From NCBI RefSeq assembly GCF_013137895.1, contig NZ_CP053538.1, positions 929,501 through 993,500 of the forward strand: a stretch of 64,000 nucleotides of DNA. Direction: 5' to 3'. Position 1 is the first letter of the stretch; the number at the start of each line of letters is the position of its first letter. The position numbers were made by a program, and so were the translations under genes. Source of the stretch: Hymenobacter taeanensis. GTDB taxonomy: Bacteria; Bacteroidota; Bacteroidia; Cytophagales; Hymenobacteraceae. Shown piece by piece: positions 39,375-51,265 of the stretch. Under the pieces are notes generated by a model that was given only the letters and a program-made list of their open reading frames with translations, was not told the origin of the DNA and made no database searches.

Positions 39375-39382
39375 TATCTTTG
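39375..39382 (+). promoter_or_regulatory. Probable -7 box for the cobalamin-regulated operon
   Basis: TATCTTTG matches TAnnTTTG and would start RNA near 39389, exactly where the riboswitch fold begins. I see no clear -33 TTG at the usual distance. Confidence 0.5.
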
Positions 39383-39388
39383 CGGCCG

Positions 39389-39595
39389 TAAAGGTGGCCA
39401 GACCCTAATTGCAGGGCGAGGCTTAAAAGGGAATCCGGTTCAATGCCGGAGCTGTCCCCGCAACTGTACGCTTCACTTACCCAGGCGGTCATTCCCCCTG
39501 CCACTGTTTCGATGAAAGCAGCTGCGCTCTGCAGCTGCCGGAGAAATGGGAAGGCGACCGACCCGAAGCAAGCCAGGAGACCTGCCTTTACGTTT
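39389..39595 (+). ncRNA. Cobalamin riboswitch
   Basis: The RNA has the conserved core of cobalamin riboswitches: AAAAGGGAATCCGGT at about 39433, then GCCGGAGCTGTCCCCGCAAC at about 39454, and the B12-box-type end GAAGCAAGCCAGGAGACC at about 39565-39582. A side hairpin (GCAGCTG arms at about 39518-39537) lies between them. It is read toward the TonB receptor gene, 170 bp further on. With cobalamin bound, the family usually shuts off translation or transcription of B12-uptake genes. Confidence 0.92.
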
Positions 39596-39764
39596 CCCAT
39601 GTTCAGCGCCTTCGGAGGAAGGGCGGAGAATGATTGCAGTAAGCGGCCTTCGGGCAGCTTGAATTCCCTGTATTCGGCCTCGGCTTCGGTAGAGTATTCC
39701 GGTTTCGGAAAACAGTACCAGAAGTTTTGAACTGAACTTTCCTACCCCGGAAATTTTGGTTCGG

Positions 39765-46069: not shown

Positions 46070-46072
46070 GGT

Positions 46073-46235
46073 GTCATTGCGAGGACGCAGGACGAAGCAA
46101 TCCTTCCTTGGCCTTCTTCCAACACCAATCTATTCAAAAGCCCTTACCTCCTGCGTGGATGTGAGGGCTTTTTATTTACGCGGGTTTCTGACTGCAAGCA
46201 GAACAGATTGCGTCGTCCTGCGTCCTCGCAATGAC
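46073..46235. repeat. Dispersed palindromic element with internal terminator hairpin (copy 2, complete)
   Basis: Outer inverted arms of 30 bp (46073-46102 and 46206-46235) differ at one base. Inside is a hairpin with AAAAGCCCTTAC-type arms at 46137-46172. The two-level structure and the match to 38490-38631 mark a MITE-like repeat family. It sits between the outer-membrane protein gene and the radical SAM gene. Confidence 0.75.
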
Positions 46236-46308
46236 AGGCCTACGGAACGGACTTTAGCGCCACGTCGTTCGGGCGTATCTTTGTAGCCCTTCTTGACTTC
46301 GTGCTGCC

Positions 46309-48651
46309 GTGTCTGCTTCGCTCAACATCCTGCTCATTACCCCGCCGCTTACGCAGCTCAACACGCCTTACCCGGCTACGGCCTACCTGAAGGGCTTTCT
46401 CGGCTCGCGTGGCTACAGCGTAACGCAAGCTGACCTGGGCCTGGAACTGGTATTGAAGCTGTTCTCGCAGACTGGCCTAGCGCGGGTTTTCAACGCTATT
46501 GAGGAGGGCAGTTTTGACCTGAGCGACAATGCTAAGCGCATGCTGCGCCTGCGCCGCAGCTACCTCAGCACCATTGAGCCGGTTATTCGGTTTCTACAGA
46601 ACAAGGACAACACGCTGGCCCCGCGCATCTGCCACAGCCGTTTCCTGCCCGAAGCCAGCCGGTTTGACAACGTAGCCGACCTGGAAAGTGCTTTCGGCAC
46701 CATGGGCCTCACCGACCAGGCCCGCCACCTGGCCACGCTCTACCTCGAAGACCTCGGCGACCTGATTAAGGAAACCGTGGGGCCGCAGTTCGGCTTTTCG
46801 CGCTACGCCGAGAAGCTGGCTATGTCGGCCACCTTGTTCGACGGTTTGCAGGAGGCGCTGGATGCCCCCGCCAACCTCCTGGACCAGATGCTGCTGGAGC
46901 TGCTGGATGAGCTGGTGGCCGGCACCGAGCCCGACGTAGTGGGCTTCACGGTGCCCTTCCCTGGCAACCTGTACGGGGCGCTGCGCCTCGCTGGCCGTGT
47001 GAAGCAACTGCGCCCGACAGTGAAAACCCTTATGGGTGGCGGGTATCCTAATACCGAGCTACGCCAGATCAAGGAGCCCCGCTTCTTTAACTACATCGAC
47101 TTCCTGACTCTGGATGACGGCGAGGGCCCTTGGCTGCGACTGCTGGGATATTTGAGTGAGGAGAAAGAACGGCAGTCTGTACCAGTACTGGAACGTCATG
47201 CTGAGCCTGTCGAACCGCAGGTCGCCGTTAGGCAAGCATCTCTACCGCTGGCTAACTCCAATCGTGTGGGCGAAGCGGTAGAGATGCTTCGACAGGCTCA
47301 GCATGACGTTCTGTTGAGTCACCAGCTTCCCTTCCAACGGACTTTCCTGCGGGATGAGGCGGGGGAGGTGGTGTATATCAACCAGCCCTTCCCGGATATT
47401 CCGCACCCGGAAGTTGGCACACCGGACTATTCCGACTTGCCCCTGACGGAATATCTGTCGGTGATTGAGGTGCTGAACCCCATGCACCGGCTCTGGAGCG
47501 ACGGGCGCTGGAACAAGCTCACGGTGGCCCACGGCTGCTACTGGAAGCGCTGCTCTTTCTGCGATGTCACGCTGGACTACATCTCACGCTACGAAACCGC
47601 GCCCAGTACCCTGCTGGTTGACCGCATCGAGCAGATTGTGCGGCAAACCGGCCAGACCGGCTTCCACTTCGTGGACGAAGCTGCCCCGCCCCTGGCCCTG
47701 CGCGACCTGGCCATTGAGCTGCTAAAGCGCCAGGTGAACATTACCTGGTGGGGCAACATCCGCTTCGAGAAAACCTTCTCCCCCGACCTGTGCCGCCTGC
47801 TGGCGGCCTCCGGTTGCATTGCCGTATCGGGTGGCCTGGAGGTGGCTTCTGACCGGCTGCTGGCCCTCATGGAGAAGGGCGTAACCATTGCCCAGGTAGC
47901 CCGCGTGACGGACGGCTTCACCCAGGCCGGCATTATGGTGCACGCCTACCTGATGTATGGCTTCCCCACCGAAACCGCCCAGGAAACCGTGGATTCGCTG
48001 GAAGTGGTGCGGCAGCTGTTTGGAGCGGGCATCGTGCAGAGCGGCTACTGGCACCGGTTTTCTATGACGGCCCACTCGCCCGTAGGCAAAAACCCGGAGA
48101 AGTATAAAGTGCAGCCCATCGGCCCAGAACCCGGCCCCTTCGCCTGGAACGACCTTTGGCACGACGACCCCACCGGCACCGACCACGAACAGTTCGGGCC
48201 GGGCCTGGCCAAGGCCCTTTATAACTACCTGCACGGCGTAGCCCTCAATGAGCCTCTCAGCTTCTGGTTTGATTTCCGGGTGCCCAAGCCCACCGTGCCG
48301 CGCCACCTGATTCAGCAGGCCCTGCAGGAACCCGTTAAACCCGACTTCGCCAAGCAAAACCAGCGCCTGTTCTGGCTGGGCAACGCCCCGGAGCTGACGA
48401 TGGAAGCCGGTAAGAAAGGCCCGCGCGCCGTGCTCACTTTCTATGAGCAGGCTGAGGATTTCGAAGTAAAGGTACCCGCTGCCATAGGCCAGTGGCTGCA
48501 GGAGCTTCTAGTGGGGCTAACTGCGGATTACGATACTAAAGTCCTGCTAAAAGATGCCGCCCGCACTTTCCCACAAGGCCAGAGCTTCGAGCAGTTCCTG
48601 CAATCACAAAGCTGGCATCTGCTGCGGGAAAAGGGCCTGTTGATTCTGTAG
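46309..48651 (+). CDS. B12-binding-domain-like radical SAM protein with an in-frame repeat insertion
   Basis: Protein of 780 residues starting at GTG. Residues 1-290 resemble the cobalamin-binding (B12) domain that precedes many radical SAM proteins (NILLITPPLTQ, EPDVVGFTVPFPGNLYGALR, TLMGGGYPN), but the DxHxxG cobalamin motif is not visible. Residues 295-334 are encoded by a dispersed palindromic repeat. The radical SAM core starts near residue 408: HGCYWKRCSFCDVTLDY, whose cysteines are spaced CX4CX2C instead of CX3CX2C. GGLEVASDRLLALMEKG and YLMYGFPTETAQETVDSLEV follow. The C-terminal ~150 residues are variable. The substrate is unknown. Confidence 0.82.
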   Translation: MSASLNILLITPPLTQLNTPYPATAYLKGFLGSRGYSVTQADLGLELVLKLFSQTGLARVFNAIEEGSFDLSDNAKRMLRLRRSYLSTIEPVIRFLQNKDNTLAPRICHSRFLPEASRFDNVADLESAFGTMGLTDQARHLATLYLEDLGDLIKETVGPQFGFSRYAEKLAMSATLFDGLQEALDAPANLLDQMLLELLDELVAGTEPDVVGFTVPFPGNLYGALRLAGRVKQLRPTVKTLMGGGYPNTELRQIKEPRFFNYIDFLTLDDGEGPWLRLLGYLSEEKERQSVPVLERHAEPVEPQVAVRQASLPLANSNRVGEAVEMLRQAQHDVLLSHQLPFQRTFLRDEAGEVVYINQPFPDIPHPEVGTPDYSDLPLTEYLSVIEVLNPMHRLWSDGRWNKLTVAHGCYWKRCSFCDVTLDYISRYETAPSTLLVDRIEQIVRQTGQTGFHFVDEAAPPLALRDLAIELLKRQVNITWWGNIRFEKTFSPDLCRLLAASGCIAVSGGLEVASDRLLALMEKGVTIAQVARVTDGFTQAGIMVHAYLMYGFPTETAQETVDSLEVVRQLFGAGIVQSGYWHRFSMTAHSPVGKNPEKYKVQPIGPEPGPFAWNDLWHDDPTGTDHEQFGPGLAKALYNYLHGVALNEPLSFWFDFRVPKPTVPRHLIQQALQEPVKPDFAKQNQRLFWLGNAPELTMEAGKKGPRAVLTFYEQAEDFEVKVPAAIGQWLQELLVGLTADYDTKVLLKDAARTFPQGQSFEQFLQSQSWHLLREKGLLIL
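47192..47310. repeat. Palindromic repeat inserted within the radical SAM coding sequence
   Basis: Outer arms of 23 bp (47192-47214 and 47288-47310) are perfect inverted copies; inner arms at 47234-47249 and 47274-47289 also pair. The same sequence occurs in intergenic DNA at 51007-51177 and, in part, at 48757-48799 and 49005-49047. It adds about 40 residues without a stop codon. Confidence 0.85.
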
Positions 48652-48670
48652 GCCAGGTAAGAGCAACTAG

Positions 48671-49137
48671 AACGGCAGCTCCCCTCCTCAGATGATTCCG
48701 CGCATTAAGCGGCGTGGGGTTGGGGGTGGTTGATGCTGGCGGAACGACCAAACTAGAACGTCATGCTGAGCTTGTCGAAACATCTCGCGTGCTGACGTTG
48801 TCGGACTAATTCAACCTAAAAGCACGTCATCCTGACGAAGAAAGGATCTTCTCACGTTAGCACGAGGCGCTAGGCCAGTCGTTTCAGCGTTGCACCCCAC
48901 CCCAACCCCTCCCCTCAGGAGAGGGGCTTAGATTACTAATGCAGCGTCAGCGGTAGATAGGATTGCTTGGTCAAGGTGACGTACGGGTGCGCTAGATTAC
49001 CATTGCAACGTCAGCACGCGAGATGTCTCGACAAGCTCGACATGACGGGCTTGAGGGTAGTCGTTCCGCTAGCATCAACCACCCCCAACCCCACGCCGCT
49101 TGATGCGCGGAATCATCGGAGGAGGGGAGCTGTCGTT
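48671..49137. repeat. Nested inverted-repeat cluster
   Basis: No gene in this stretch. Outer arms of about 78 bp (48671-48748 and 49060-49137) are inverted copies with about four differences by eye. Inside them a second pair, 48757-48799 and 49005-49047, belongs to the repeat family seen in the radical SAM gene. The centre includes a short element reading CGTCATCCTGACGAAG and a CCCCTCCCCTC/GAGAGGGG hairpin. Confidence 0.8.
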
Positions 49138-49163
49138 CTACCAGCCGTTCTTACAGCCCTTCC

Positions 49164-50920: not shown

Positions 50921-51265
50921 AGAACGTCAACTCCCCTTCTCAGATGATTCCGCGCATCAAGCGGCGTGGGGTTGGGGGTGGTTGACCGGAGCGCTGTCTA
51001 CCTAGCACGTCATGCTGAGCTTGTCGAAGCATCTCTACCGCTGGCTAACCAACTGGCCTAGCACATTGCCCGCTCCATAGCCCAGGGTTTAAACCCTGGG
51101 CTAGTGCACGTTCATCCGAGTGGCCTAGGCTTCAGCAACGAAGCGGTAGAGATGCTTCGACAAGCTCAGCATGACGTTCTTATGTAGTCGTTCAACAGTA
51201 TCGTTCTAGGCCAGTCAACCACCCCTAGCCCCTCCTTAATTAAGGAGGGGAACTAGCTCTAGCAG
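50921..51265. repeat. Second nested inverted-repeat cluster
   Basis: No gene seen from 50863 to 51274. 50921-50985 is a third copy of the 78-bp arm of the 48671-49137 cluster. 51007-51177 is a full palindromic element with perfect 36-bp arms (51007-51042 and 51142-51177). Within it lies a 26-bp perfect palindrome (51078-51103). At about 51230-51252 is another short palindrome of the CCCCTCCTTAA type. Confidence 0.8.

Follow-up and report, generated by a model that had tools for sequence, protein, structure and literature searches.

Several unrelated families of dispersed palindromic repeats occupy one interdomain linker of a radical SAM gene in Hymenobacter

How does a palindromic repeat come to lie, in frame, between two domains of a conserved protein, and what becomes of it there? 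This question is raised by a 64,000-nt stretch of the Hymenobacter taeanensis genome (G000, 4.88 Mb; assembly GCF_013137895.1, contig NZ_CP053538.1, positions 929501–993500; hereafter the window, whose own numbering is used throughout), in which a gene for a putative B12-binding/radical SAM protein carries such a repeat in its interdomain linker. The closest named relatives of the species are H. fodinae and H. wooponensis, with protein identities of 95–96%. The host gene and the element comprise the following features:

46309..48651, + strand: host gene, B12-binding/radical SAM protein of 780 aa (open reading frame (ORF), GTG start as called)
46906..47118, + strand: partial B12-binding domain match, residues 200–270 (PF02310, 27.2 bits, under the cut-off of 32.1)
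47146..47334, + strand: variable interdomain linker, residues 280–342, with invariant flanks W275/L278 and Q343–F346
47191..47312: in-frame palindromic element, a head-to-head dimer of a CGTC-tagged repeat (sequence and repeat search)
47191..47214, + strand: outer left arm, 24 bp, perfect (repeat search), with its partner arm at 47288–47311
47215..47234, + strand: interruption of the left arm by 20 additional bases, present in H. fodinae (locus L125) and absent from H. wooponensis (L124)
47235..47249, + strand: inner left arm AGCATCTCTACCGCT, the partner of the inner stretch of the right arm
47274..47312, − strand: uninterrupted right arm, 39 nt, with a 95% match to 51004–51042
47524..48003, + strand: radical SAM domain, residues 406–565 (PF04055, 40.8 bits, cut-off 29.5)

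Scoring of inverted repeats gave 24.0 for the linker of the window compared with a maximum of 9.5 in control windows (at most 15, from the same gene), confirming that the palindrome within the host gene is real and lies far above chance. A preliminary description of this locus, made from the sequence alone, had placed perfect outer arms of 23 bp at 47192–47310; the element is present, but its outer arms measure 24 bp (47191–47214/47288–47311). As stated there, the reading frame 46309–48651 remains open throughout the element, which lies between the N-terminal domain and the radical SAM core. The peptide encoded by this CGTC-tagged dimer is RHAEPVEP..ASLPL..EAVEMLRQAQHD. The contribution of about 40 residues proposed earlier holds for the palindrome itself, but the net gain over the compact linker of relatives amounts to 51 residues, as the linker measured from the DDGEGP anchor (DDGEGPWLRLL to QRTF) comprises 74 aa here versus 23 aa in Pontibacter virosus. 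Separate assemblies of the close species H. fodinae (L125) and H. wooponensis (L124) share the element, and an Rfam scan of the window returned no family at its position. Homology to intergenic repeats, also suggested beforehand, was borne out by the right arm and by two copies in the window:

51004..51180: intergenic copy of the same CGTC family, with 39-nt arms (51004–51042/51142–51180) that are 97% complementary
48759..49047: intergenic copy with 205 nt of further, nested repeats lying between its arms (48759–48800/49006–49047, 93% complementary)

Outside the lineage the inserted residues are missing. In 71 of 77 family genomes from outside the genus, the host protein was matched over its full length without a break, and the other six all belong to sister group g5, which takes in several species named Hymenobacter. 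Among the 41 loci fetched from these genomes the linker measured 23 aa in 29 and was long in five (all g5), with seven illegible by pattern; two further g5 members are compact. Neither of the two tests set in advance, homology to the intergenic copies and the state of distant orthologues, refuted the earlier interpretation, which is thus supported.

Within the genus, 119 of 120 genomes gave a strong match to the host protein (E 1e-165 or better) and no stop occurred among the matches listed; G094 matched only at E 5e-4, and G096 was truncated at a contig end. The linker was legible in 190 of 198 loci, corresponding to 119 distinct orthologues that include one Pontibacter (L203) and several g5 species (such as L182, L188, L192 and L200). 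Five of the eight loci missed at first were read later (three distinct, namely one of CAGTTGTCAG type and two compact) and stand outside the counts of 119, while the linker of L107, L146 and L123 was unread. Eighteen of the 119 linkers are compact and 101 are longer, the latter comprising 49 CGTC-tagged dimers, 26 of CAGTTGTCAG type, two of GTAG type and 24 others; classes were set by peptide patterns, with L077 and L136 reassigned by eye, and the labels of peptide families are our own. The CGTC dimers fall into three peptide subtypes (RHAELVEAS..MLRQAQHD; RHAERSEAS or RHAERSRSIS; CHPERSEGP). Linkers of CAGTTGTCAG type are palindromes of CAGTTGTCAG-like units encoding CQLSVASCQ..LTTDNWQLAT, and the GTAG-tagged palindrome is GC-rich and encodes GAGLAPA..DDGRGQAPPL. 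In the class of others, some linkers are clearly decayed. Loci L096, L158, L182 and L199 hold a piece of a further family, the SPLSxGEG type, in the loop (by eye). In 82 of the 101 long linkers the inverted repeat scored above every control window (at most 15, same gene), and in 19 it did not.

The CAGTTGTCAG and GTAG repeats that occupy the linker are dispersed in the genomes of their carriers, and CGTC repeats in every genome searched. The match counts that follow are lower bounds, as 25–40 candidates were scored per genome, and hits on either strand and to the linker itself are counted in. The 119-bp element gave at least 75 BLAST matches in the window genome (40 of 109 candidates scored, arms and strands counted separately). 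In the 32 genomes that were searched for the CGTC family, 17 of which have a compact linker, matches per genome numbered from at least 24 to at least 90. The CAGTTGTCAG linker matched the genomes of four carriers at least 31, 82, 31 and 99 times, two compact-linker genomes at least nine and five times, and the window genome not at all. For the GTAG type, its two carriers gave at least 73 and 60 matches, and both the window genome and G077 gave none. Since the window genome is rich in CGTC repeats, the zeros for CAGTTGTCAG and GTAG repeats show that the palindrome families are unrelated. No fewer than three unrelated palindrome families are thus found at this one linker site.

How often the occupant changes was estimated from a tree calculated without the linker (FastTree, 119 rows; 44 of 116 inner branches starred, 41 open). 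The fewest changes required were 45 for five classes, 26 without the class of others (95 rows) and 11 for compact versus long, compared with shuffled-label means of 60.6, 39.9 and 16.9, respectively. These numbers lie below the shuffled means yet are many, indicating inheritance plus much switching. Three sister pairs with support of 99–100 differ in recognised class (L076/L191, L050/L084 and L100/L162).

The host gene is not the only one affected. The search for such elements in other coding sequences, called for in the preliminary description, yielded inserts of other families in Pnkp, MenD, Hen1, methylmalonyl-CoA mutase and a RecB-like gene, which rules out insertion specific to the radical SAM gene. 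For Pnkp (TIGR04075, 1373.8 bits), 30 loci were fetched and 25 were legible; the loop between DLGVRV and FLGDLVDRG is compact in nine of these and long in the other 16, and the five loci missed by the scoring added two further carriers and three compact loops. All 16 long loops scored above their controls, L373 narrowly. The palindromes in them are of SPLSxGEG type, of AGACGCAATATCTTGCGTCT type and of one or more further kinds, making this loop a second multi-family palindrome site. The Pnkp loop (L348–L377) lies just ahead of the phosphatase domain match of this RNA-repair enzyme, whose partner is Hen1. The SPLSxGEG family is also internal in methylmalonyl-CoA mutase (1305.4 bits), in a UvrD/RecB-like helicase (PF00580), as a single unit in a GH106 protein, and in Hen1 of genome G115 (657.1 bits), where it occupies residues 325–362 between the Hen1_L and methyltransferase domains. 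MenD of the window genome (TIGR00173, 375.9 bits) contains PRPLSSGEG..SERGPGGEAH in frame with an inverted-repeat score of 20.9 versus a control maximum of 8.8; the MenD linker was legible in 12 of the 41 MenD loci supplied. Pnkp apart, all seven SPLSxGEG inserts scored lay above every control window.

A survey of the window genome that covered 864 kb (the window itself and 40 further 20-kb stretches, with long ORFs spanning 753,657 of those bases) yielded 37 inverted repeats scoring at least 24, of which only the host-gene element lay within a long ORF; as the window had been chosen for that element, the fair count is that of the remaining 800 kb, which is zero strong in-ORF inverted repeats. 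With the threshold lowered, and with the host-gene element included, three of 62 lay within ORFs at a score of 20 and nine of 105 at 16. A CGTC-like in-ORF repeat at L251 lies ahead of the start as judged by reading. At L266 (own genome, 5483–5536), an inverted repeat unrelated to the families treated here scores 21 and covers residues 186–204 of an 803-aa frame.

Across ten further genomes, the CGTC peptide lies within the long stop-free frame of the host gene in seven of the eight with a CGTC linker. The matches listed, out of 219 in all, held six other stop-free frames of at least 300 aa, with the peptide at or before the probable start as judged by reading, so that among the matches listed in these genomes the peptide lies well inside a long frame only in the host gene. 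A protein search with the CGTC peptide returned only the window's own protein at E 1e-3. Relaxed to E ≤10 over 5.8 billion proteins, it gave 44 candidates, 12 of which (430–1365 aa) match the peptide; 11 of these have a radical SAM domain, the three that were read (P0002, P0005 and P0011) being the host gene, and the remaining one is an outer-membrane efflux protein (PF02321) with the peptide ahead of a signal-like sequence. The same search with the CAGTTGTCAG linker gave four matches, three to radical SAM proteins and one to an unrelated metagenome protein of the DUF1343/YbbC family (P0016), which contains a CAGTTGTCAG-type palindrome peptide.

We consider it likely that REP-like (repetitive extragenic palindromic) sequences repeatedly enter tolerant interdomain loops, largely neutrally, with turnover of several families at one site. 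In this view, Hymenobacter genomes contain short palindromes of several dispersed families (REP-like dimers), normally intergenic, and a few interdomain loops of conserved proteins would accept almost any in-frame insert, most other coding insertions presumably being purged. The loop of the B12/radical SAM protein would thus have gained, time and again, a palindrome family dispersed in the respective lineage, probably through the copying process of these repeats, and would have kept it when it read through; the insert would then decay or shrink and later be replaced anew. The inserts are probably translated and mostly neutral.

Several observations weigh against this explanation. CGTC repeats are equally plentiful where the linker is compact and the GTAG type is abundant (at least 105 matches) in the compact-linker genome G048, so that the presence of a repeat in the genome is not sufficient for insertion, and for the CGTC family an empty linker for want of repeats is ruled out. 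The repertoire of a genome seems to limit what can land without forcing a landing. In addition, dispersal and turnover point to the mobility ascribed to the element beforehand, but no dispersal enzyme was found in a search limited to the RAYT-type transposase (REP-associated tyrosine transposase; Y1_Tnp, PF01797), which gave no match in the window genome versus five positives among 14 control genomes. The CGTC type always uses the same frame in the listed cases although a second open frame exists, a count that is partly circular as classes were set from peptide patterns, yet no row of the other class shows the second frame (by eye). The host gene also offers no clean insertion points, the compact residues looking replaced rather than split (by eye). 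Lastly, the arms of close relatives change together beyond independence, which plain neutrality leaves unexplained.

The apparent choice of a few loops could alternatively reflect dedicated integration, in which a sequence-independent, hairpin-recognising machinery puts any palindrome into fixed sites such as those of the host gene and Pnkp. Such a process would fit the finding, for each of two genes, of a single site shared by unrelated families, and also the confinement of CGTC inserts, which were not seen in other genes among the matches listed and, at the strong threshold, in the surveyed stretches. The compact Pnkp site moreover has CCGGCCGG-like palindromes, and GGCC or GGCGCC borders several of the inserts there (by eye). 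However, the junctions seen in the radical SAM gene are variable, with loss of sequence (by eye), another family lies in frame in the MenD, methylmalonyl-CoA mutase, Hen1, RecB-like and GH106 genes, and the search for PF01797, the only family sought, identified no enzyme. We therefore regard dedicated integration as unlikely; if true, it would mean that unrelated repeat families succeed each other at the same codons of fixed landing loops.

Quite unlikely, in our view, is that the hairpin itself is selected as an mRNA or DNA structure between the domains, for example as a translation pause for separate folding. Such selection would explain why the arms pair strongly in most long linkers and why different families provide hairpins of one kind at this position, but an insert is missing from 18 of the 119 orthologues, and among the 101 long linkers 19 have no inverted repeat above control. 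Paired changes in the arms bear on both sides of this question. In the seven closest of 17 linker pairs (246 base pairs) we counted three complementary double changes and 16 single changes, with about 0.2 doubles expected if the arms change independently; over all 17 pairs (649 base pairs), some of the distant ones possibly representing separate insertions, nine complementary double changes compared with about two expected, alongside eight double changes that broke the pairing and 90 single ones. This excess keeps the selected hairpin alive as a reading, yet correction of one arm by the other through template switching would yield the same complementary changes, and the paired changes fit such arm-to-arm correction as well as selection. 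Mismatches within the arms of 71 linkers, read on the coding strand, comprise 120 A.C versus 83 G.T, the reverse of what an RNA hairpin would lead one to expect; this excess of A.C, without any excess of G.U, speaks against an RNA hairpin under selection. Between the related species behind L138 and L133, which seemingly share one inherited insert, the arms differ by paired substitutions at several positions; complementarity is kept, while the encoded protein is altered in both arms (by eye).

A spread of linker alleles among species through homologous recombination, in place of fresh insertion, is very unlikely, even though linker classes are common to distant species. When nearest neighbours are taken from the 120 columns that flank the linker on either side, the linker class agrees in a fraction of 0.47, compared with 0.54 when they are taken from the rest of the gene and 0.19 at random (117 rows); flanks thus predict the class no better than the rest of the gene, and allele exchange is not indicated on that scale, very short tracts being possible. 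The two non-CGTC families are, moreover, dispersed in their own carrier genomes. An explanation of the inserts by faulty annotation or assembly, or as low-complexity linkers of the ordinary sort, is almost certainly wrong and refuted as a general account, as separate assemblies share the element, 119 of 120 genus genomes match strongly and the cluster cysteines are invariant in 30 sequences, although a few linkers (L175, L178 and L183) are plain Pro/Ala-rich tandem repeats.

CGTC- and GTAG-tagged REPs were defined by Di Nocera et al. 2013 (PMC3733652), who report CGTC repeats in Bacteroidetes too, list intragenic REPs, some in recB and other repair genes, propose that REP insertions may occupy flexible linkers, and describe different REPs at about the same recB site in two Xanthomonas species. 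Our repeats share the terminal CGTC motif (here CGTCATGCTGAG at both ends of the dimer), a stem that starts with complementary AT (ATGCT/AGCAT in standard copies, e.g. from 51007 onward) and the occurrence of some copies inside genes. Head-to-head dimers, the predominant form of the published CGTC repeats, were seen here in the window and in the survey, which was confined to inverted repeats. A dedicated transposase is not described for the published families; in the window genome, Y1_Tnp, the one transposase family sought, gave no match. Our repeats differ in a 5-bp stem with an 11-nt loop (by eye) instead of 8–9 bp and 4–5 nt, in the CTC that follows the stem where a CCA-like tail fits most, not all, published repeats, and in far more species and families at one site.

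The Hymenobacter inserts would also parallel the Rickettsia palindromic elements found in genes (summarised in PMC10969869; also PMC3733652), which are likewise dispersed palindromes lying in frame in unrelated conserved genes and adding tens of residues; in Hymenobacter, too, palindromes lie both in frame in conserved genes and between genes. The turnover of unrelated families at one site of a conserved gene, in the phylum Bacteroidota, may be an addition to that picture. REPs mobilised by RAYT (TnpA-REP) resemble the present repeats as REP-like palindromes of high copy number, but the window genome has no Y1_Tnp match. Intragenic miniature inverted-repeat transposable elements such as ERIC and Coxiella QMITE1 are, according to PMC10969869, small non-autonomous repeats that form in-frame fusions as well; unlike in these, no target duplication was visible by eye at the printed host-gene junctions, duplications and a parent insertion sequence not having been searched for systematically. 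A term search of the RepRanger paper (PMC12306157) gave neither Hymenobacter nor 'intragenic', and we found no published report of palindromes at this radical SAM site in literature that leaves subscription journals mostly uncovered.

The roughly 119 orthologues represent a natural series in which one linker is rewritten by dispersed palindromes, with empty, inserted, decayed and replaced states visible. They open testable questions on how REP-like repeats spread without a known transposase and how often such DNA becomes protein. For annotators, the peptides RHAELVEAS, MLRQAQHD, SPSPSERGPGGEA and CQLSVASCQ mark repeats, not domains.

The inserted residues had also been proposed to add a new linker or surface loop. 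An AlphaFold2 model of the host protein (mean pLDDT, predicted local distance difference test, of 59.5) showed values below 50 at residues 292–338 with more confident flanks, which weakly suggests that the insert may form a flexible surface linker or loop; the support is weak because the radical SAM core was also poorly modelled. The model was dropped as too weak a basis for a fold search, and a search of solved structures with the host protein gave no match. The cysteines that hold the cluster (C410, C415 and C418) are invariant among 30 sequences compared. Their spacing at residues 410–418 is CX4CX2C (CYWKRCSFC) in all 30. The usual radical SAM spacing is CX3CX2C.

Some further observations concern repeats and genes around these loci. 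At L330 (G012:C1:1412000-1422000), an SPLSxGEG palindrome joins an AcrB-type transporter and an outer membrane efflux protein in one 1518-aa frame, possibly a gene fusion made by the repeat. In the intergenic regions 48668–49140 and 50921–51252 of the window, several palindrome families are nested in one another as mosaics; the split CGTC repeat lies between 81-nt arms at 48668–48748/49060–49140 (95%), and an inverted recurrence of 65 nt is present at 50921–50985. One more palindrome lies near the host gene:

46072..46236: another palindromic repeat, of TGTCATTGCGAGG type, just upstream of the host gene (inverted-repeat survey)

The window, which holds this B12-type radical SAM gene, also contains a cobalamin riboswitch (RF00174, 94.6 bits) at 39375–39603 on the + strand.

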